Of a DNA stretch of 64,000 nt, positions 30,308 through 46,400 are shown piece after piece. Positions within the stretch are counted from its first letter, which is position 1. Each line of letters begins with the position of its first letter. Position numbers and translations under genes: made by a program. This DNA is from Liolophura sinensis (lineage: Eukaryota > Mollusca > Polyplacophora > Chitonida > Chitonidae). Under the pieces are notes generated by a model that did not search any database, had not been told where the DNA came from, and saw nothing but the letters and a program-made list of their open reading frames with translations. The DNA lies in assembly GCF_032854445.1 (NCBI RefSeq), contig NC_088300.1, forward strand, positions 73,461,005 through 73,525,004, given 5' to 3'.

Positions 30308-33300
30308 ATGGCGACGTCCAGTAAGTACGACTGGAAACCATCGATTATCAAGCTTTCTCTTAAACTTCCCAGTCTTTCAGAGTTGTAGAAAAAATTTAGT
30401 TGATTATCGAAATTGATGACACACAATGGTTTGCTCCGAGTGGCCATTTTTGTAAATCCGCGAAGAAAAATGTTTTCTTGTCAGCCACATTTGCCCTGTT
30501 CTTTATCTTTGCAACAACAACACGTAAAATCAGCTGAGTGAAAAGCAGATTCTTCATTGAATAATCCAGATCGGCATTTCAGCCAAATTCAGGAGTTCAC
30601 ACAAGCATGGACGAGGCAGCGTGGGTGCTCTCGCAAACAATGAGGGCTAAGAGGTGTGATATTACGATATTTGCTAGACTGAATATACATCATTTCACAG
30701 GGTAAATTGACTAAACGGTGCCACTAGCAGCTACCATAAATCTTGTCTTGTAGCTGTGTTTGTGTGCGAGAGCGCCCTATATCTTTATCTCGCCTAAACC
30801 TGCTTAAACGTGTGAGACTCCTGACATGCCGGTTTGACTTATAATAAACCGTTTGCATTTCAAGATAAGCACCACTACTCTCACCACAACATAGCAGCCG
30901 TGGTCAAAGCACCCAGTCTCAATAGCGGACAGTGACATTTGAAGTTTGAGGCTGGAGCGGCTTTCCATGACCAATAAAATGGCAACATTTGAAAGTAACA
31001 TTAGCTTCTCGGCATTTTCAGTTTCTCTATTGTTCTTATTGTAGAATTTCTAAAATACGGACATTTAATGTAGTAAGCCTGCTGCTGGTAAGTTAAAGCA
31101 TAGGCTGTTGAGTAAAAACTAGCACAGAGCTCCTGTGTACTAGCTGTCAGATATTTCAACTAAGAAAGTTGTGGCGGTTCGAAATGAAAATGTGGCTTGT
31201 TGACGTCACTCGACCACATAACAGCGTTTCATTAATAGACTCCTAGTCTCCTTCACGGAAAATGTATTTCCGTCCTACGGTCAACCATTACAATGGATAA
31301 TGCTGCATGAATCGATGGATCAATCGCAGTGAGATCTAAATCAGACAGCATAAACAAGGAATGTGACAACTACAAAAGTCAGTTGTAGAAGTGGAATACG
31401 GAATAGCCTCTCCACTGTTGCTTCAATATTTCGAAATGACTTTCCATTTATTTTTCTTGGAATAGTACCCGAGAATTGTGTGGCCCTGCATGTCTTTTGC
31501 TGAAGTACATACTTGCACAGATATATGTGCTACAATTTTGTCAGCTTCACTTTACTCCTTAGGAGCTTGTCAGCCTCAAAGATCATTGAAACAAACCTGT
31601 AATGGCATATAAACAAAATGATGTGATTGACTCACTTTCATAACATTTGATCCTGTCTAAAATCATGTAAAACCTAGTAAGTAAAGTTTACTGCACAGGT
31701 GGTACCAGTTTCACCCCACTAGTCGCCGAGGTCAAATCTGTGAAATGTTGCAGTTGTTATAGTCCTCAAAATGACATGTTGAGATAGAAAATATGTGGCT
31801 TTGATGGGAACTCTCCACAACTATGAGGCAATGCTGTCGACACTATAGCCACAGTCATAATAATAGGTTAGTCCCCAGTTAATATGGGGTAGTGACTTAG
31901 ACAAGACCTGGTCGTGTAGTTAGATACATTAAGTGTTGAGATCTGCATGCATTTCCAACATTTACTAACATTTGCCTGCTTCAACTTTTAGTAACTAAAG
32001 TGAAAAATCTAATTTGTCTTTGCAATCCGGTTTGTACTACATGTATTTAACACTTAAGTACAGGGTCCTTTTTATCACTCCTACATTACATGTATTAAAT
32101 TTATTCTCAACTGCTGAAATATTCCAGGTTTGTCCTAAAAAAATAACTTTGTGCAATAGTGACATATCAGGCTCACTCCAGATATGGAGCCATTGGAGTC
32201 TGTCCAATCTTGGCAACATGCACGAGACAGAAGTCCTATTTTGATTGGATGAGAAGTATTTCATTAGGAGCATGAATGGCATCCATATCTGGATGATTAT
32301 GATTTCAAATGATTCAGGGGCCTCTGGTTGGCATGCCAGCTCGGCACAATGACTCAGTCTAGCTCATGCTGGCTCGCTCTCTACATATGTCATTTGCGAA
32401 GATCTGTCAGCAACCTGCAGGTGGTCGTGGTTTTCCCCCCGGGCTCTGCGGGGTTTCTCCCCACCACCATGATGTTGTATAAGTGAAAGATATTCTTAAG
32501 TATGACATATTTAACGATATTTAAAGTTAACATGCCCCTCTTTACAGAGCTGAAATTAAAGCAGGGTCCTTTGGATGTGTGGTCGGTAAGAGAGAGACTC
32601 TCATTGGCCAGTTCAGTTTTGCGAAATGGAGATCAAAACTGGTAAATATATTATAACCACAACAAAAATTATAAATATGATTAATGACTTGATACTTTGC
32701 CAGTGACTAAGTTGTACATTTTGCCAGATTCTCGGAGTTCTATTGATTTCAGAAAGATGCTTTGAGGTTTGTGTGGAAGTAAATTAATATCGTGATGAAA
32801 AATGTAAATTTGCTTGTAGAATTTTTTCTTTTTTTTTGTTGCATTTTTGTGCAAAACTTTGGCCAATTTACATATAACAAAATAATAAGACAAAATTCTG
32901 TATTTTCTAATTATTGTCTCAAATGATATCAGAGCTGAAACATTTTATAATACCAACATATTAGTTTATATTAATAAAAATAGATGCTTAACAGTAAAAT
33001 GTTTATATGCAGTGTAGTAGTAATGCATGTTCTTTAGAACAAAAACAAACAAGGGAAAAAAACATAGTTATAAGTCTGCTGCTTTTACAGGGTCTCAGTT
33101 AGCCGAGCAATTAAACCATTTGGGGAAAGTGACAGACCACCGGATTGGTTTTCACAGAAGGTGAATCTTTGTACATAAACGTACTGTGTTACTGAGCTTT
33201 TTGTTCATTCCTTTAATTTAAGCTGTAATGTTATATCTTATGCATATATGTTACGGATGATTACAACATCCGGATTGTAATGGAATTTTGTTTCATTGTC

Positions 33301-34460
33301 ATGTTGTATATTTGAAGAGCAGGAATTATCTTTTGGCAATGATGGTAGTCATAGTATTCAGTTTTATATGTACGTGGAAGCTTTAGCAATTAGTTAATTT
33401 ATGTACAAGTATCTGTGTATCTCGTAGACTTAAAAGCATTTTGATCAAGGTTAACTGGGTAGAAAATATTTCCTTTATACTCTTTTTTTGTTTTTTGCAG
33501 AATTGTGCCTCGCAGTACTCAGAACTCCTTGAGAAAGTTGAAACACCAAAGTGAGCGTTCATGATATTACCATCTGTAAACTCAATTTTGGAAAAGGTCA
33601 TTTTCTAGGAGGGGTGCAAGGACATATCTTCAAAATCTATGAGAAAGGTTTTGTTTGGATGAAAGTTGGGGCAGACTTTCAGAGGGTTTAAAATTCATTG
33701 GATACTAAAAGTAAAACTCAGTTTTTTTTTTTTTGGTGTACATTTTTGTGAAACTTTCCTGATAGTTAAAAACTATCTAAGGTAAACAACTATGCTATGG
33801 ATTCTGCATCCATTAGAACTTCAGTTGTGATGTTGTGCATGTTGGTAACTGTATTTGTTTGATGTTTGACAGACGAAAACGTGGTGACAGGGGTGAAATA
33901 GAGACACCAGGCAATCAGATCATCAGGAAACTGACCATAGAAAGAATAGAGGAGCTGAAGAAAATGGTGTTAGAGGAGCAACACAAGTACAAGTAAGACA
34001 CCTAAGTCCCTGCTGGCATGTAATAATGACATGCTCTAAATGCTAAATATGGTAAATTAGCTAAAATTTCACTGCTTCCCGCCCCCAAAATTGGACTTGT
34101 AGAAGCAGATAATTATGTTTTTAGTGTAGGATGCGCCTACCTTCCCAACAAAACACAATACACCTATCTAAGAATGTTCAGAATCCTGCATAATGTGCAA
34201 TGTATCCTTCAATGAAATTTTAGGTCATACACCGTGATTCTTTTGTAGGTATTAAAAAGTAGAGCTTTGACTTTCTTCCTATACTTTGTGAGTTTGCTTT
34301 GTTTATAATAAACATTGTTGTAACTATCGTTTGAGTTATGGCAGTTTGTCATCCATTTTACATTATATATTTTCTGTAGGAAATTAAAAAAGGAAGTGGA
34401 AATGATCAAGACTGGGCAGTGGGATGACAAACTTCCAGAAGTCTGGGCCAATATGCAGGC
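30308..34460 (+). CDS. BRD8: BRD8 exons 1-6: SANT-like domain and charged helix
   Basis: Exon 1 has only 13 coding bases (MATS, then A|GTAAGT). The intron of 2.2 kb is followed by exon 2, which continues KLKLKQGPLDVWSVRERLS. This matches the human N-terminus in layout, including the Trp-Ser-x-Arg-Glu and GDQNW (32-36) residues. Exon 3 gives SVSRAIKPF and RPPDWFSQK, exon 4 NCASQYSELLEKVETPK. Exons 5-6 form a Lys/Glu-rich helical region that includes the RKLTIERIEELKK block. The start codon is the only ATG that splices in frame to exon 2. Confidence 0.9.
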
Positions 34461-37400
34461 GTAAGTTTTGTATCAACTATCATTCCACTTTGAGATGTCT
34501 TTCTACTACAAGATGTAGTCATCTCTGAGTTCTGGTCATTATATAATTTTTATTTTATTTGTTGTCGTTCCATTGTGAGATCATCTAGTCTTCATAAGAC
34601 TTGATTTGACTGTTGGGTGGGGGGTGGGGGGTGGGGTTGGGGGAGAGGGACCCATGACCCACGATCATCTGCAGGACCTTCCCACATACGCCCACAGAGG
34701 AAGCCAGCGAGAGCATTGGTGAGAGGCTCCTGGGTTATTGTGCACCACTGCTAACCACCTCGGCCACAGAGGCCCCCCATTCTTCATAAGAGTTCTAGCT
34801 CATATGAATTATCATTCCACTGTAAGTTCTAGTTCATGTATACCGAAACAGTACAAGTCTCAATGTGTGAATCATATTTCATACATCCTGTGTGTTCTCG
34901 CTACGATATGCCTGAAATATTGGCCATGTGGTGTTGAGCCATAATCATTCATTCATTCCTTCTTTCTGTGTTCATAGAGAGAAAGCAGCAGCTGCCGAAG
35001 TGAAGAAAGCTGCTACACCGAAGAAGTCTGAGACAGTCACATCATCCAGTGATGCCAGCCAAGGTAAAACTGGGAAGTGATTTCTCATGATTGTGAATGC
35101 TTACCAGTTTCAAACACAATTCTCTAGTCAGTTATCAGTTGCTATTTCCAAAATTGTCTGATATCAGAATAATTTCTTATAAGTTTCCTAATGGTATGTA
35201 GGATTAATCTACTTTATGAACACACTTCATAAAAACTTGTTTATATAAATCTTTCTTTTTTTTTTTTTTTTTTTTTTGCTTTTGAAGGCATTCGACCAAA
35301 GAAGTTGATTATCTCCCCTCCCAGTGTGTCTGAACCTGACGACAGTACACTGGAATCGGTCATGGACATGGTACGACCACTCTGGACACTGTTCCAAAAT
35401 GTGATATCAGAAAGCATTATGTTCAGTTGTTGTCATACCTTTCTACTTTCCTGTACTGGTTTGTTGATAGATTGTCAATATTTCAGTAGACAGTGATACA
35501 GAGCAGTTCATGCATAGTTTTGCATTGATGTGATACCTGCTTTGAGCCTTTGGTCACATAACTAGAGTACTGGAGGTGAAAACAAAGCAAATTTAACCCA
35601 GGTGAGATAGGCATTGAAGACAATTTCACCATAAAAAATGGAAAATATAACTCTAAGGTTAGCACTTAATTAAGGAATTATTCCCGGAAAAGTAAAGAGA
35701 ATGTTTATAGCCTTCAGATATGATAGATCCAATATCCTCTAGTAATTTAGACTAAAAAATTGGCAGAAATCTGCATTTTGCCCATTTAGCTCCATATTAT
35801 TTCTCACCTCCTTGCAAAGAACCTTGGTGTTCAAAACTGTGAATTGGTATGCTTTATAAGCACAGTTCCATCTAGAGTCCTGCAGATAAACTTTGTGAAA
35901 TATTACTCATTAGTATGCATGTAGCTTCCCATCCATGGAAATTTAGGCTGTAAACATGCTGATCATCTTGGATTTCCTTAAATTAAATATATTGTCCATC
36001 GCTGGAAGTGCTAATTATTAAACGTCTTGCAGTTTAAGTCTTTGATTCAGTTGCTTTTAGTGTTGACCCAGTTGAAAGAGAAGTGCTAACAGTTTGGTTT
36101 GTGGGATAGAGGTGATAGTGAAACCGCATTGCTGACTAGATATACTTCTGTACTCGTTATTGAAAAATAAGTAATAAACCAGCTGTGTGGGAAGCGTTTC
36201 CTATCTAAGTTAATTGAGGACAGCTTTTGCAATGGCATTTTATATGAAAATTTATGTAAGAGAAAAATGTCAGTCCTGGTTTGACAAAAGTGTTCCTTGC
36301 CACAATAAAGCTGGCGGCCGGCGTAGAAGTGAAGTAGTCTTGAGTATGGCGTAAGATAACAATCAAATAAATAAATAGACGGAAGTGGTCTTTCTGTTAT
36401 CAGTCTAATGATGAGGACAGTAACCAGACCATACCAGGGACGTCTGCGGCTGAGGGGAACCTGTCTGAGCAGGTAGATGTCACATCCCCCCAGGTTCACC
36501 CTCTCACCATCCCTGGGGCATTGACCAAGCTGCAGGCTATCCCCGTCACCCCTGTGCCCTCATTCCAGGCCACCCCAGGGGGAGGGGCCACCACCTTGAC
36601 CCCACCATCACTCCAGCAGACCAGCCCACAGACCAACTTGGCTGGACGAGCCAGCAGGACCACGCCCCCCTCCTCGCCACTTCTCTCATCTCTGCTCAAA
36701 AGCAAGCATCACTCTGCAGAGATGCTTCAGCAGATGAAAACGGTAAGCAGACTTACAACAGTATATAATTGACATACTTAGTTTAGGATGAATCTTAGCC
36801 AGTCCAGTCGCAGGTTAAAATGTTCACACTAGAAAAGGGCTCTCAATGACTCATTTGGTTGAAAGGTTTCTCTCTCTCCTCAGCTGACTGATTTGTCACC
36901 AATAGTTGGGCCCCAGTGTTTATAACCAACAGATTGTCAGGTACTTGCCAGGGGCTGAAGTTTTTCACCAAGATGAAGCTATTCCTGGTTTTCTTCAACC
37001 TAGCCTGGGCTAGTTTAGTGAACTGGGCTGGGCCAAGGGTAGTTGGTTTAGAATAATAATTTAATAATGGCCAATGTGTTGCACTTAAATATTTTAACAT
37101 TAGATGAATGACAGTACACCACCATATATTTGGCATTTCCGTAGGAAGTTGAGCAAGGACAAGCTTCCCAGGCTCTTGCTCAAACTTTAGTGGTGTCCCC
37201 TCCTGTGGCCCACCAATCAACACCTGTAGATTTACCAGCCAGTCAGAACAAGGATGCCAAAAAGCTACCCTCGCCATTCAAAATGATTGTTTCTCAAGCT
37301 GATGGTCTGTCCTCTTCATCAGGTATGCTTGAAGAGATGGGTAAACAGCAAACGTATTGTGGGTCATCAGTTTGTAATAATCCCTGTATGTGGAATTTTT

Positions 37401-40400
37401 GACTTGCTGCTAGTTGACCTACACATTTTAACAGATACCTTGTATCAGTCTTGCGTATTACATTTTGTGTATTTCAGTACATGTTAGATGGTTGTTGTGC
37501 AAAGAATGACAAAATTATAGATGGTCTAGATGCATAAATTGGTTTATAAATTCACTTTTATACTTACTGAAACAGTTTGAGAAATAAGATTATTTTGAAA
37601 TGTTTATTCTGATTTTTGGCGGAAAAAATTTTATTGTTCAACCACGCGTATTCAGCTGTCACAAGTTGAAGATTTTGTGTTGTATTTTTATTTACAAGGG
37701 GCACCAACTCTTTCCAAGTTACTGGCAGTTCCAGTTATGGCTAAGAGTGCTCTGACAGCTCATGCTGGTGTCACTGTCACTCAATCAATCAAAAACATGA
37801 TCGTGGAAACAGATCAGACTAAACAGGGTAAGATGATGAAATAAGTGAATTCGAGTGCCTGTGATGTAATGGTCTCATGTATGACTTACACAAAGCATCA
37901 AGTCATCTTAAGTAAAATTAAGCAGGCACTTAAAGTGAAGATTTCTGTATTGTTTTGTGCAAATGTTGTGAATGATGATGTACTGATCATGTACATTTAT
38001 GATCACATACATTTATGAAAGTATAAATTGATGTGAAGGACTGCCTAATATACATTTTAGAAGCTGTTCCCCAGGCTGTAGCAGAAGTTGTCCTGACTAC
38101 TGCTCCACCTAGTGAGCAAATGAAACAGTCATCAGAGTTGCCTGCACCTTCCCAGACAATCCCTACAACAGATTCTAAGACAGAGATTAAACAGGTGAGT
38201 GTTTTTTTCCTTGTCAGCCTTTGTCCCAGTTTATGTTTTTTTCTTTTTTTTGATACTGACCATTTAAGCTGAGTTTCAGTTTAAAGAAAGTAAAGGCTCT
38301 AAAGAAGTATGTAACAGTTATGATTATGTTCATATTGTTTGGTTTATGAACTTTTTCTTACATTGTCTTCATGCCAAAAATTGGCACTTTAAGAAAACAA
38401 CCACAACAAGGTTGAAGTGATGGTTATTCTAATTGCTAATTAGCTGGCTGATAGTATGAGTAGTTTTGTGTAGAATCGCCGGCCCTTTCAGTTTTTTATT
38501 TTAGGCGACATGAATTTTACTAAAAACATTAAAAACTGCAAAATTGGAGTCCCAGCAATGTATTTCCCGTGAAATAGATGATTCTTCAGTTTAATTTTAT
38601 GCCCTCTGAGACTCAAAAAATATTTATTCTAGCTGTATTTTGTTTGGTGGCTCCTGGGTCATTGCGTTACGCTGGCGTGCTAACCCCCTCAGCCACGGAG
38701 GCCCCCTGTTTCTGCCTGTTAAATAAAAATATAATTTGGTGTGGTTTTACATATGTATTTTGCCTGTGTATACACTCATATGCCCTTAGTGTAGCTACTC
38801 CCCAGACCTTTATAAGACTTATGTTGTAAATTGATAAGTGTAGCTACTCCCCAAATCATTATAATACTTATGTTGTAAATTGTAGCTAATCCCTGAACCT
38901 TCGTAAGACTTATGTTGTAAATTGATAAGTGTAGCTACTCCCCAGATCTTTATAAGTCTTACGTTGTAAATTGTAGCTAATCCCCAGACCTTCATAAGAC
39001 TTATGTTGTAAATTGTTATGTGTAGCTACTCCCCAGATCTTTATAAGACTTACGTTGTAAATTGTATCTAATCCCCAGACCTTTGTAAGACTTATGTTGT
39101 AAATTGTTAAGTGTAGCTACTCCCCAGACTTTAATACGACTTATGTTGCAAGTATCACTATTCCCCAGATATTCAGAACACTTGTGTTGTAACTACAGGA
39201 AGTGCATGTAGCTGATGTGAAACTAGTGGATGTGGACAATGAGAAGTTGACCCCTGTACAGACCAGCACAAAGCTGGAAGTGAACAACGAAGCCGGTACA
39301 GAGGTAGAGAGTCAGCCAGGAGAATCCCGGAGTCAGATAGCAGAGGAAAGCGAGAGTCAGTCAACACTGGTTCCTGAGGATGAAGTGACCATAAAGGAGG
39401 AGCCTCTGTCACCTTCAAGCAGCGTGTCCTCACGAGTCAGCGAAACTGGTGCCACCAAGACCACGCGCAGGAGGAGAAAAGGTATGGTGTTAAAGACAAC
39501 TGTACATGGAGGAAAATGTTAGTTGGGAAAACTAGAAATGCACTGTGATTGACCAAAGTTTATGGCCATATACTGTCATCTTGACGTCATTGTACATGAA
39601 GACGGTATTTATCGGCCATTCCTCAGTGAGGCCATTATTAAAAATATGTTCATATGACTAACCATGTGACTGACCATATGACTAACCATATGACTAACCA
39701 TGTGACTGACCATCCTACTCAAAAGTTAACTTGCAGAAGACCCTTATGTGTAATTTGCCATATGTCCAGTTCAGTGGAGCATATCCTATGCCAGTAAAAT
39801 ACATACTCGTAGTTTTCATTCTGCTTGTGGAAATTTGCCCTTTTGAAGAAGTCAAATTCTGCACAGTAGAATGAAAATTACAGGGATGGGACATGCACCA
39901 ACTGTATCCCGTGATCTGGCTTTTTACAGATATGACAACAGATTTGAGCTATGATCAATAGTTTTTTTTTTTTTTTGGTATGATGCTAACTTTGATTTGT
40001 AAGGCAAAAATATCAAAATCAGTTCAACATATTCATATATTATGCCTGGGCCTTTATGGTAAAGATTTGATCATACTTTGAAATCACCTGCAATTTACAA
40101 TATATGCAATGGATCTATGTCAGAAAATCAAGTTTAACGAACTGGAAGTGACATAATCAAAACAGAAGTCACTGTATTGCATTTGCAAATGATGCTAACA
40201 TGGGATTGAAGTGTGATCAAAATTTACAGAATTAATCAAACTGGACTTTGAACTGGGCATCATATTGACTGGAAATGCTGGCTTGAACCCTGGTATTGCT
40301 TTAAGGCAAATAACAGTTATATTTTGGCTTCAATTTCTACCTTTGCATTTGTAGGAAGAAGATCTAAAGGAGGCAGAAGAAGCACCCGGCTGACTAGAAA

Positions 40401-43400
40401 GGTAGAATATTTACTGAAACCAAAGTTAATCAAAGGACTTTAAAATGATAAGGGAAATATGTTGATAGTTTTTAAGGATAAATTACACTAATATTTATAA
40501 CCCACTTCTTCTCAAATCTCAGTATTATTGATATGATCGACGTATTGTACACATTGTAATTTGTTGTAAAGGTGTTTATTCAAGCATATTCTGAGGACAT
40601 TATTCTGTGTAGAGTGACAAAACTTTTTGTGAAATCCTGAAATCCGTCAACCAACGTAGTGTTGTCTCTGACAGCCTAGTAAACAAGTACATAAATCTTC
40701 CTGAAAGTTCCTCTGTCATGCGCGAAAAGGTGGAGGAATTAGGCTAGATCATATCTAGGTACATAAATAGAATTGTATAGGTATAAAAGTAAGATTTTTC
40801 TGATGTGGAAAAATGATAGAATAAAGAAACAAATAAGCCCTCTTAGTTTCAAACGTCTTGTTAAATGCTTGATAAGAACAAGAGGTTTGAAACTTTAGTT
40901 GGAATACAAACATGTAGAAAGGCTTATTTGTTTTTTTTATTCTAGAATTCTACATATATGTTTTTTTTTTTTTTTTTTTTTGTGGCTATGCTAGGATCAA
41001 TGGGATTATGACATGAACTATATGTATTGTCCAGCATGGTGTATAATGGGAGCTAGCTGATGATCACTGTGAGGTATACATGTAACATGAAGCTTGTTTG
41101 TAACCAAGGTGGTAAATTGACAGGTTACTCAACCAGTGATCATGATGATTATAGTAATTGTTGTCTCGTAGCAGTTTCCTTGTGGGCATTTATGACACAA
41201 ATCAATATATGCAATCCATACATACAATCCATACTTATGTGTAGCAGGAGGAGGAGAAAAAGGATAAGGATGATGCCAGCAGCAAACCCAGTGATGGGGA
41301 AACTTCAGATGAAGAACGAGAGAGTGATGGGTCTGTGATGGCCTCTAAGATGACCCCCATCAATACCACGCCCTCAGCCTTCTCAGAGTCCATCCCCAAC
41401 AGCCCTCTGTCACAGTGGTGGGTATCATTGTCTAGTCTCTGCAAGCCTCGGTTTTTACTTTGTTTTCATGTAACATATATGGCCTTCGTGGCTGAGTGGT
41501 TAACATGCCACAATGACACAGGAGTCTCTCCACAATGTAATTACTTTGAGTTCAAGTCCAGCTCATACTGGCTTCTTCTCAGTTCGTACTTGGAACTTTC
41601 AGCAACTTTGGATGGTTGTGGATGATCATAAAGAAATAAACATACATGACTCCATGTTACTTGGGATCAAGTGGTTGCCCAGATCAATTGATTTGATCAC
41701 TACTTGGGAATGTATTTTCTGAGCACTTCAGCTTCAGCATCTCGCTTCAAATCCAGCACTCACTAGGATGAATATTTAAGAAAAGAAGTTTGTCATCCGA
41801 CAAACTGTGGTTGTTTGCTGCGGTTGTTTGCTGCAGTTGTTTGCTGTGGTTGTTTGCTGCGGTTTGTTTGCTGCAATTACCTCCGCCCATAAAACTGACT
41901 GAAATCATATTGAAGATTTTTCAATGTTCCAGCACCAATCAAATTATACAAAAAATTCAGCACCTAAATTTATTGATTTATTTATTTTATTGGTGTTTTG
42001 TGCTGTACTCAAGAATATTTCTCTTTAATGATAATGGCCAGCATTATAGTGCTAGGAAACCCGGGGAAAACCCACATCCATGCTCAAATTGCTGGTAAAC
42101 CTTCCAGTTATGCTGCATTAGCATACTGATCACCAGGTTACAAGTAGTATTGTAACTTTGTTGACTACAAAGATATCCATTTTGTACTATGCCTTAATAC
42201 AGATGTGGTTTGTTAGATTCAAAGTGTTTGAATTAGGAAAATTTTTTGTTCTGACTTCTCATGATGCAGTAGTGACACAGAAGACGAGAGGGCATATAAG
42301 AGCTGGAAGAAATCAATCATGTTGGTCTGGAGAGCTGCATCCACTCACAAGTAAGTCATAACATCTGCTCAGACAAGTCCGTCATCTTTCTGCATCCACT
42401 CACAAGTAAGTCAGAACATCTGCTCAGACAAGTCCGTCATCTTCCTGCATCCACTCACAAGTAAGTCAGAACATCTGCTCAGACAAGTCCGTCATCTTCC
42501 TGCATCCACTCACAAGTAAGTCAGAACATCTGCTCAGACAAGTCCGTCATCTTCCTGCATCCACTCACAAGTAAGTCAGAACATCTGCTCAGACAAGTCC
42601 GTCATCTTCCTGCATCCACTCACAAGTAAGTCAGAACATCTGCTCAGACAAGTCCGTCATCTTCCTGCATCCACTCACAAGTAAGTCAGAACATCTGCTC
42701 CGACAAGTCCGTCATCTTTCTGCATCCACTCCCAAGTAAGTCTTAACATCTGCTCAGACAAGTCCATCATCTTCCTGCATCGACTCACAAGTAAGTCAGA
42801 ACATCTGCTCAGACAAGTCCGTCATCTTCCTGCATCCACTTACAAGTAAGTCAGAACATCTGCTCAGATAAGTCCGTCATCTTCCTGCATCCACTCACAA
42901 GTAAGTCAGAACATCTGCTCAGATAAGTCCGTCATCTTCCTGCATCCCCTCACAAGTAAGTCAGAACATCTGCTCAGACAAGTCCGTCATCTTCCTGCAT
43001 CCACTCACAAGTAAGTCAAAACATCTGCTCAGACAAGTCCGTCATCTTCCTGCATCCACTCACAAGTAAGTCAGAACATCTGCTCAGACAAGTCCGTCAT
43101 CTTCCTGCATCCACTCACAAGTAAGTCAGAACATCTGCTCAGACAAGTCCGTCATCTTCCTGCATCCACTCACAAGTAAGTCAGAACATCTGCTCAGACA
43201 AGTCCGTCATCTTCCTGCATCCACTCACAAGTAAGTCAGAACATCTGCTCAGACAAGTCCGTCATCTTCCTGCATCCACTCACAAGTAAGTCAGAACATC
43301 TGCTCAGACAAGTCCATCATCTTCCTGCATCCACTCACAAGTAAGTCAGAACATCTGCTCAGACAAGTCCATCATCTTCCTGCATCCACTCACAAGTAAG

Positions 43401-46400
43401 TCAGAACATCTGCTCAGACAAGTCCATCATCTTCCTGCATCCACTCACAAGTAAGTCAGAACATCTGCTCAGATAAGTCCATCATCTTCCTGCATCCACT
43501 CACAAGTAAGTCAAAACATCTGCTCAGATAAGTCCATCATCTTCCTGCATCCCCTCACAAGTAAGTCAGAACATCTGCTCAGACAAGTCCATCATCTTCT
43601 TGCATCCACTCACAAGTAAGTCAGAACATCTGCTTGGACAAGTCCATCATCTTCCTATTGCACAACATAATTGTTGTGTGTTTGATTTTTCATCGTAATG
43701 TTTGGTAAAGCTGTTTTGGGTTTCCCTGCGTTGTAGGCAAGGATTGATATCTGTTCTGGGATAGTCTAATGTTAGCCACCCTAAACGATTATTTTGACCA
43801 AATTTATCAAAAATTTTAATAGACCATAAATTTAAGTGACTTAGAAATTTCCATCTAACCTGACTGAAATGACTTTCTGACATCCAAACTCATCTATTTG
43901 ACAGCAGTACTTTTTTCTGAGTGTTCACACCATTGCATTTTCCTGCTATTGTGTAGGTTTCTTCTATGCGTTAAATGACATAAAGTTTTGCCTGTTGATT
44001 ACTGTTTACTTTCGCACGGACTGAGTTGGCAGCAAAATGACAAAAGTGGGTGATTGGTTCCCCTGCCCATTTCATTACCCAGCATGGCAGCTGTTTGACC
44101 TAAAATCCGCACCACGTACTGACAGCGAGAAAATGTCTCCCGGCCAGCCCATGTGAATTTCTAGTTATACCCATGAATTAACCCGAAGAAAGCATAAAGT
44201 AAGGCGATGACTATAACAACCCTGTAAATTCCTGAAGGCAGGGCCGTCCCTGCCTCAGTGTACACCGCAGACCTCGTAACGGCCAACGTACCATTGTTTG
44301 GGTAACGTGGAAGTCACGTAGTCACATTTTGTTTTGTTACAACCAGATATGCCCTATTGTAGAAGAGTTACCTTTCCTGCGTGTTGGAATCGGAAACCTG
44401 CCATTAAACACAGAGAATTACCACAACTAACTTTGACACCTTTTTGATAGGACTGTGCGAGTCCGGCATATATTGGAAGTCAGACAGGATTTGTCTGTGT
44501 TGTTGACACATTAGGAGTTTGCGAAACACTGACTGGCTATATATCAAAGTAAAGTGCATGTTTAATTACCAGTATGCAAATTTTTGCCCAGGCCTGATTT
44601 ATGCATGGCCAGAGACAGGTAAGATTATTTTTTGCCTTTTGTCGGCAAAAATCCTGTCATCAATGGGTATAATAGACACATGGAGATTTCGAGCCATGTT
44701 GATTGTAAGTTGTCACTGTCAGTTTGACATCATGGTAGTTTACAAGTAAGATTTCACAGGGTGCTTAGTTCTATAGCTCTGTACATGAAAAATGTACATT
44801 TTAACAGATATTTGACTTACCACTCCAGGTATACAAAGGTGCTGGGTAGTCATGCTCAATCTTCAGGGGGGGTCTCCCGAATTCCCATTCATCATAAAAC
44901 GGTGATCATAAAACAATCCAGATGCACCTTTTGTGAAGTAAGTCTGTATGTACTAAATTCATTATGATTGAAACAGAAGAAAACATGAACTGTAAGAGCA
45001 TAGACTGATTGCCCAGTGAAGCTTGAGCTTCCATGTTTATTACGTTTGGGAACTGTCCATATAATCTCCCTGACCACCTTCGATGCTCTCCCGCGGCACC
45101 CGGTCAGTAAGAACCACAATCAACGCATTAAATCATGGGATACACTTTCCAAGTCTAAGGGCGAATTTTAAGGTCATTTACCGTGTTTCAGACTGTTTAG
45201 ACAGCTACGTCACATACTCTGCAGTATCACATTAACAATTTGTAAACCTGCTATTTTATTCATGTGATTGTGAAGTGGCCATGAAAAACATGGGCCATCA
45301 ACATTGAGAAAAGAACAGCTACTGTAGAAAGAAGCTTTCCACATTCGCCTCTTCTATTTGGGTTGTTATTTATATAATAATCTGTAGTTTATCCTGTATG
45401 TTTTAGAATTGCCACTTCTCATTTACAACTTTGTTATATTGCTAAACAGGTTATGTGTTGCTTTGTCATTTTCAGATATGCATCTTTATTCCTCCATCCA
45501 GTTACCAATGACATAGCACCAGGATACCACAGTATTGTGCACAGGTAAACATATCAATTAATGCCATACACTTAATAACACCTGGTTAACCTGAGGAATT
45601 ACAACAGGTCTTTTGTTTTCTGTTCATGCTGACACATAAATTACTTACATTTACTCATGGTAATCATAGAAAGCTCCCCTCTTGATGGCTGAACTGTGTT
45701 TATCCTTTGTAGAATTTTCCAGAATTTTACATGATCTCATGTCAAAGAATTTGAATTTCAGTAAATTTCATTGATCGGTATAATCAATATAATATAATAG
45801 GCTGAGTAGGCCCTACATCACTAAATGAACCAACTGGTGCAGAAAGATACTCCACCAGTTTTGCTTCTCTGTTTAAGTTTGTGAAACCTTGGGTACTTAT
45901 GTATAATTTGCAGACCAATGGACCTGAGTGTGATAAAGAAGAACATAGAGACGGGGATGTTGCGTACAACAGTGGAGTTTCAGCGAGACATGATGTTAAT
46001 GTTTACAAACGCAATAATGTACAACAGCTCTGACCATAACGTGTATAGGATGGCTGTGGAAATGTACAATGATGTACTCCAGCATATTGAGGTAAGTTGT
46101 TATTGTGAGCAGTGTGTTTGTACATCACTATGTTGTCCATTTTTGCGGAATTCTTCCTGGTGTGTTATGGCTGATAATCATTGCTTTCCTGTCTCATGTG
46201 TTTCACACGTGAGTGTTTGATTCTTTCATTCATTTGATTCTTTCTTGGAACCAATGTACAGATTTATTCCTTATCTACAGGTGTTTGTTGTCACTAGAAT
46301 CCTTCATTAGAGTATCAAATGTCACTTACCTACATAAAGCTCAGATTTTTCTCTATAAACATGGAGGTACATGTGTGTATGCAAGTGTAAAGGAGCCTTC

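Follow-up and report, generated by a model that had tools for sequence, protein, structure and literature searches.

The minisatellite of the human gene IFI6 has a repeat unit of 12 bp. Two of its downstream units serve as splice donor sites, giving rise to three mRNA species, and the variants encode protein isoforms (PMC4526556). In human segmental-duplication genes, internal tandem repeats at exon-intron boundaries alter splicing; they are minisatellites in primate-specific genes of recent duplications, with on average four units of 30 bp and with transcript support (PMC2812944). A third relevant case is exon 11 of human PAH, whose splicing efficiency is set by U1 small nuclear RNA (U1) binding downstream of the natural donor, at a single intronic region defined by mutations and without a repeat array (PMC5933811). 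Here we describe a minisatellite of 24 units, each with a 5' splice-site sequence, that lies across the boundary of exon 16 and intron 16 of a bromodomain gene in the mollusc Liolophura sinensis. The window analysed is a stretch of 64,000 nucleotides (assembly GCF_032854445.1, contig NC_088300.1, positions 73,461,005 to 73,525,004 of the forward strand).

As in IFI6, a minisatellite supplies several donors in series, but here the units are of 55 bp, in 24 copies, and the extra donors are predicted to lead to an immediate stop and not to protein isoforms. Like the segmental-duplication repeats, the array spans an exon-intron boundary, whereas its gene is conserved, the array is longer and it is known from DNA alone. 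With PAH exon 11 it would share a U1-bound sequence downstream of the natural donor, the pairing with U1 being predicted in our case. The array belongs to a known kind, that of minisatellites giving multiple splice donors, and is probably ordinary in origin. Our preferred reading, to which we give a probability of about 0.72, is a neutral minisatellite grown from a 55-bp exon 16/intron 16 segment, with the extra donors as passengers and the exon's own donor probably used most of the time. Several such exon-edge minisatellites, this one among them, were found in the genome.

The array and the donors of exon 16

The host gene was rebuilt in frame as 18 exons, from 30308 to 46091. The features on which the argument depends are given below in window positions, with their basis in brackets; a slash within a motif marks a splice junction.

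42335..43656, forward strand: minisatellite of 24 units of 55 bp, with the 5' splice-site sequence CAA/GTAAGT in each unit (Tandem Repeats Finder, TRF; unit table; own-genome search)
42270..42350, forward strand: exon 16, where the bromodomain starts; its final 16 bases form the head of unit 1 (open frame SDTEDERAYKSWKKSIMLVWRAASTH after the acceptor atgcag; Pfam Bromodomain on exons 16-18)
42351..42356, forward strand: donor 1, from which the reading frame of the protein continues in exon 17 (translation of spliced forms)
42406..43621, forward strand: decoy donors 2-24, GTAAGT every 55 bases, whose use would give K653-stop (positions; translation of donors 2, 3 and 24)
45476..45544, forward strand: exon 17, partner of donor 1 (acceptor tttcag, frame YASLFLHPVTNDIAPGYHSIVH)
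45914..46091, forward strand: exon 18, remainder of the bromodomain (reading frame; Pfam Bromodomain on joined exons 16-18)

TRF reported a single array with a period of 55, 24.0 copies, 97% matches, 0% indels and a score of 2448, that is, head-to-tail units at one locus and within the range of roughly 10-100 bp of a minisatellite. Each unit is made of 16 exon bases, those of unit 1 closing exon 16, and 39 intron bases (GTAAGT plus 33 more). GTAAGT stands at 42351, 42406 and onwards to 43616 with a spacing of exactly 55 and is intact in all 24 units, so that both the exact period and the amplification of the exon-intron boundary as a tandem array, as claimed in a preliminary description of this DNA, are borne out by TRF and the unit table. 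Twelve of the 55 columns vary, and the 10-mer CAAGTAAGTC is invariant across the 24 units. The array is not a chance product: it extends over 1.3 kb with a mean pairwise unit identity of 96%, and neighbouring units are the most alike, differing at 1.48 sites, where shuffled orders give 2.04 (none of 5000 shuffles was as low). Units eleven apart show a weak likeness (1.69 against 2.04 differences, with 4.9% of shuffles as low), which hints at the duplication of an 11-unit block. A satellite shared with other loci was considered and rejected, since an own-genome search with 42300-42700, in which candidates were limited and one candidate region was scored, reported only the 42335-43656 locus. Read as a 33-base in-frame microexon (CTCAG/.../GTAAGT), the unit is open in 18 of 23 cases; four others are interrupted by a stop and one does not have the site. 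The acceptor tract looks poor by eye.

The last codon of exon 16 is split after its second base. When donor 1 is joined to exon 17 the protein continues as ...STHKYASLF, while the products of donors 2, 3 and 24, those that were translated, end in STHK-stop after residue 653 (a number that depends on the chosen start codon). Any other later donor would give the same stop, because the TAA at 42352 is then read through. The truncation of the bromodomain after Lys653 had been proposed before, and these translations, with the Pfam match to Bromodomain on joined exons 16-18 (3.4e-22), uphold it. In the donor 2 product the stop is followed after 51 bases by the 16/17 junction and after 120 by the 17/18 junction (counted by hand from the exon coordinates), and decay of the transcript is therefore expected. 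By its sequence the locus thus has the potential for poison splicing: use of donors 2, 3 and 24 would place a premature stop ahead of an exon junction. The layout of IFI6 is present as well, since all 24 units have a donor sequence and that of unit 1 belongs to the exon itself and keeps the bromodomain frame.

The donor of exon 16 is weak-to-middling for its gene. Its duplex with the unmodified U1 5' end has a computed energy of -5.6 kcal/mol, which 13 of the 18 donors in the gene surpass and 4 fall short of; intron 16 also holds a better, unrepeated U1 match at 44619 (-11.0). To call each unit a strong donor, as had been done, was therefore an overstatement. The purine fraction is 0.69 in exon 16 before the array and 0.44 in the repeat unit. 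AATAAA is absent from intron 16 (3125 bases), and ATTAAA occurs there twice, at 44403 and 45127.

The gene had been named BRD8 from its overall sequence, a putative identity that neither Pfam nor the PDB confirms: the best 60 of 407 matches in a PDB search were other bromodomain proteins, and the Pfam label is 'Bromodomain' only. The N-terminal 154 residues of the host protein had no PDB match at E 0.01. A second copy of the gene was rejected, three of eight bromodomain matches being exons of this gene and the other five lying elsewhere with 28-44% identity.

Similar arrays and the conservation of their donors

We searched the whole genome for three donor motifs in a row, with the motif written backwards as control. 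For AGGTAAGT at a period of 33-63 there were 661 matches against 547, and for AAGTAAGT at a period of 43-68 there were 336 against 1218, the latter control being probably inflated by 4-base microsatellites. Enrichment of donor arrays over the backwards motif was accordingly rejected, as also for CAAGTAAGT at shorter spacing (102 against 211). As a single motif AGGTAAGT (26582) is not commoner than its backwards form (29090) and so gives no base rate of true donors.

The sample comprised every distinct locus among the matches listed, in contig order, which covered contig C1 only for AGGTAAGT and C1 to part of C6 for AAGTAAGT. Besides the present array, 22 + 28 = 50 loci (L005-L054) were fetched, six of them extended, and a peptide was scanned for 36 of the 50. 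The peptide normally ended at the array's first donor; in L018, L027 and L037 it ended at an apparent donor just before and in L042 at a stop codon, and in L011 it overran the exon end by 20 residues. Ten of the 50 GTAAGT-periodic arrays start at an exon end supported by homology that reaches within a few residues of that end:

L007: RPTOR (1.8e-15)
L011: core-2 branching enzyme, Branch (2e-6)
L014: RNA polymerase III RPC1 (2.7e-7)
L016: GH31 (1.5e-12)
L035: FYVE (1.8e-5, below the curated cut-off)
L039: signal peptidase (8.5e-6)
L041: KTI12 (7.5e-6; the array takes in no exon bases and opens right at the donor)
L047: glycerol-3-phosphate dehydrogenase (0.001)
L051: Na/H exchanger (5.6e-8)
L052: MIR domain (7.2e-9)

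Twelve more (L018, L019, L022, L023, L027, L030, L032, L033, L034, L036, L037 and L044) had no Pfam or PDB support and are likely coding only by eye. The exon-edge architecture is, then, not unique to the present gene in this genome. U1 pairing differs among these loci: it is good for the donor at L007 (-10.7), while at L014 and L016 the decoys pair better with U1 (medians -13.2 and -12.1) than the true donors (-8.3), which are GTAAAT and GTATGT, respectively. At L042 (C3:2225977-2227225) the array seemingly starts across the stop codon that ends an open frame, and not at a donor.

An excess of conservation in the decoys was sought by comparing changes in the GTAAGT hexamer with those in the rest of the unit. 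The pooled ratio was 0.76 in the 11 supported exon-end arrays (the present one included), 0.79 in the 12 likely ones and 0.68 in 24 others not confirmed at exons, which is no clear excess; L010, L028 and L038 were skipped as their consensus lacks GTAAGT, and L042 was left out on account of the stop codon ahead of its array motif. These pooled ratios give no clear case for selection on the decoys, and a mild deficit of change in the hexamer is what would come of a search that required three intact motifs. With these ratios and an intron free of AATAAA, we see no clear sign of the special role for the decoys that the preliminary description had suggested; its boundary array and Lys653 stop stand, its strong donors do not. 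In a further array, L017 (C1:51318046-51320721, with L080 as its extension), a unit of 56 bp is present about 46 times; its GTAAGT shows changes in 0 of 274 aligned bases, the rest of the unit in 3%.

The immediate stop, for its part, is generic. A codon split after two bases, followed by an intron that opens with GTAAGT, reads NNG-TAA, and no selection is needed. A selected fail-safe was considered and rejected: the stop comes at +1 in 6 of the 11 supported arrays, and all six have AA/ donors with a two-base codon split. Since the host gene's other two AA/ donors, those of exons 4 and 5, share this phase, we take the stop as a consequence of phase.

Explanations for the array

Under neutral growth, a 55-bp segment straddling the border of exon 16 with intron 16 would have begun to repeat in a minisatellite-rich genome and would have reached 24 copies by unequal exchange or slippage, with 23 extra donors carried along as passengers. 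Patchy, neighbour-clustered unit variants are what tandem exchange predicts. Ten 9-kb stretches of C1, nearly evenly spaced, held 5798 minisatellite bases in 90000 (6.4%; arrays with a period of at least 20 and at least 2.5 copies), though unevenly, with none in 4 of the 10 samples, and at such a load exon edges should be captured even if no special mechanism acts. The exon's own donor is probably favoured because the exon offers an acceptor and purine-rich sequence just upstream, whereas the repeat is pyrimidine-rich, and this would be why the array is tolerated; a splice from donors 2-24 would meet the stop after Lys653 and probably send the transcript to nonsense-mediated decay. Several points weigh against this reading. 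The preference for donor 1 is something we infer from sequence, and in human IFI6 downstream repeat donors are used (PMC4526556). A count by array tilts slightly toward selection, the hexamer being better conserved than the rest of the unit in 9 of the 11 supported arrays, 7 of the 12 likely ones and 15 of the 24 others. All 24 donor cores are intact, and since the probability that none of the 12 variable columns would hit the 9-base core is P = 0.089, selection keeping the donors may be at work. Moreover, none of the 23 decoys has decayed, although a harmful decoy ought to, so there is no sign of selection against them either.

The decoys might instead act as a dosage valve, competing with donor 1 so that a set fraction of transcripts stops at K653 and decays, with the copy number tuning the output. 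Serial near-identical donors that would each give the same stop, the positions of that stop upstream of two junctions and the usable repeat donors of IFI6 all fit such a valve; but the split codon ahead of GTAAGT is enough to produce the stop, the decoys, when pooled, are conserved no better than the hexamers of arrays without a confirmed exon, and similar arrays stand at functionally unrelated genes. We consider the valve rather unlikely. Still somewhat more doubtful is its extension to the genome, in which donor-spanning minisatellites would form a class where the number of identical donors sets transcript waste gene by gene, a heritable and fast-mutating control of RPTOR, RPC1 and this bromodomain gene. 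It is improbable, too, that the array serves as a U1 landing pad, in which the decoys, without being spliced, would draw U1 to the region downstream of a weak natural donor and thereby aid the definition of exon 16. The place of donor 1 among the gene's weaker donors and the PAH precedent speak for it, while the lack of clear excess conservation in the decoys and the presence of such arrays at well-pairing donors, as at L007, speak against it. By analogy with IFI6 and PAH, repeat-donor use and downstream U1 help may nevertheless make minor contributions beside neutral growth.

The other proposals are far less probable. The array had also been suggested to be a shield against premature polyadenylation in the intron, or a U1 sponge; it does place 24 U1-pairing sites within 3125 bases, but intron 16 has no canonical AATAAA to be silenced, and 24 sites at one locus would be few beside the donors of the whole genome. 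That the array is an artefact of assembly is very improbable as well. Tandem repeats are often misassembled and this one is known from one assembly, and its copy number there could still be wrong; yet the scattered, locally clustered unit variants are unlike simple assembly error, the flanks are clear on both sides and the same architecture recurs at other loci.

Most work on how the spliceosome chooses among identical donors has used engineered constructs. The present gene, with its native series of 24 near-identical donors, and the similar genes make a ready natural test of donor competition, and L014 and L016, with decoys that pair better than the true donor, could together with the rest separate the effects of position, exon context and pairing. 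Long tandem arrays across exon edges can exist in conserved genes, which bears on annotation and on the reading of variable splice-site repeats.

Acceptor-side arrays

Exon-edge arrays are not a donor-only matter. Acceptor triplets (TTTNCAGG, three in a row, whole genome) gave 1572 matches against 696 for the backwards control; acceptor-like triplets thus exceed their control, while donor triplets have no clear excess over theirs. We fetched 23 acceptor arrays, omitting a 24th listed place that is the reverse strand of L019, and scanned the downstream peptide for 10 of the 23. In two of them a domain match follows right after the array, namely DEP at L061 and fn3 at L064, where the acceptor follows the last repeat unit. 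That the donor side is special was rejected: 11 of 51 arrays there, the present one included, compare with 2 of 23 on the acceptor side (Fisher P 0.32), at unequal scan depths of 36/50 and 10/23. L018 and L073 (C1:53592063-53596213) are a donor-side and an acceptor-side array about 3 kb apart, next to exons that by eye resemble deoxyribose-phosphate aldolase, with no Pfam match.

The host gene itself has a second boundary array, beside exon 13, which starts at 39199:

38788..39192, forward strand: intron 12 minisatellite with a period of 42-49 or 91, ending 6 bases before exon 13 (TRF)

Two of its units carry TTGTAAATTGTAG, which resembles the true acceptor of exon 13, TTGTAACTACAG.

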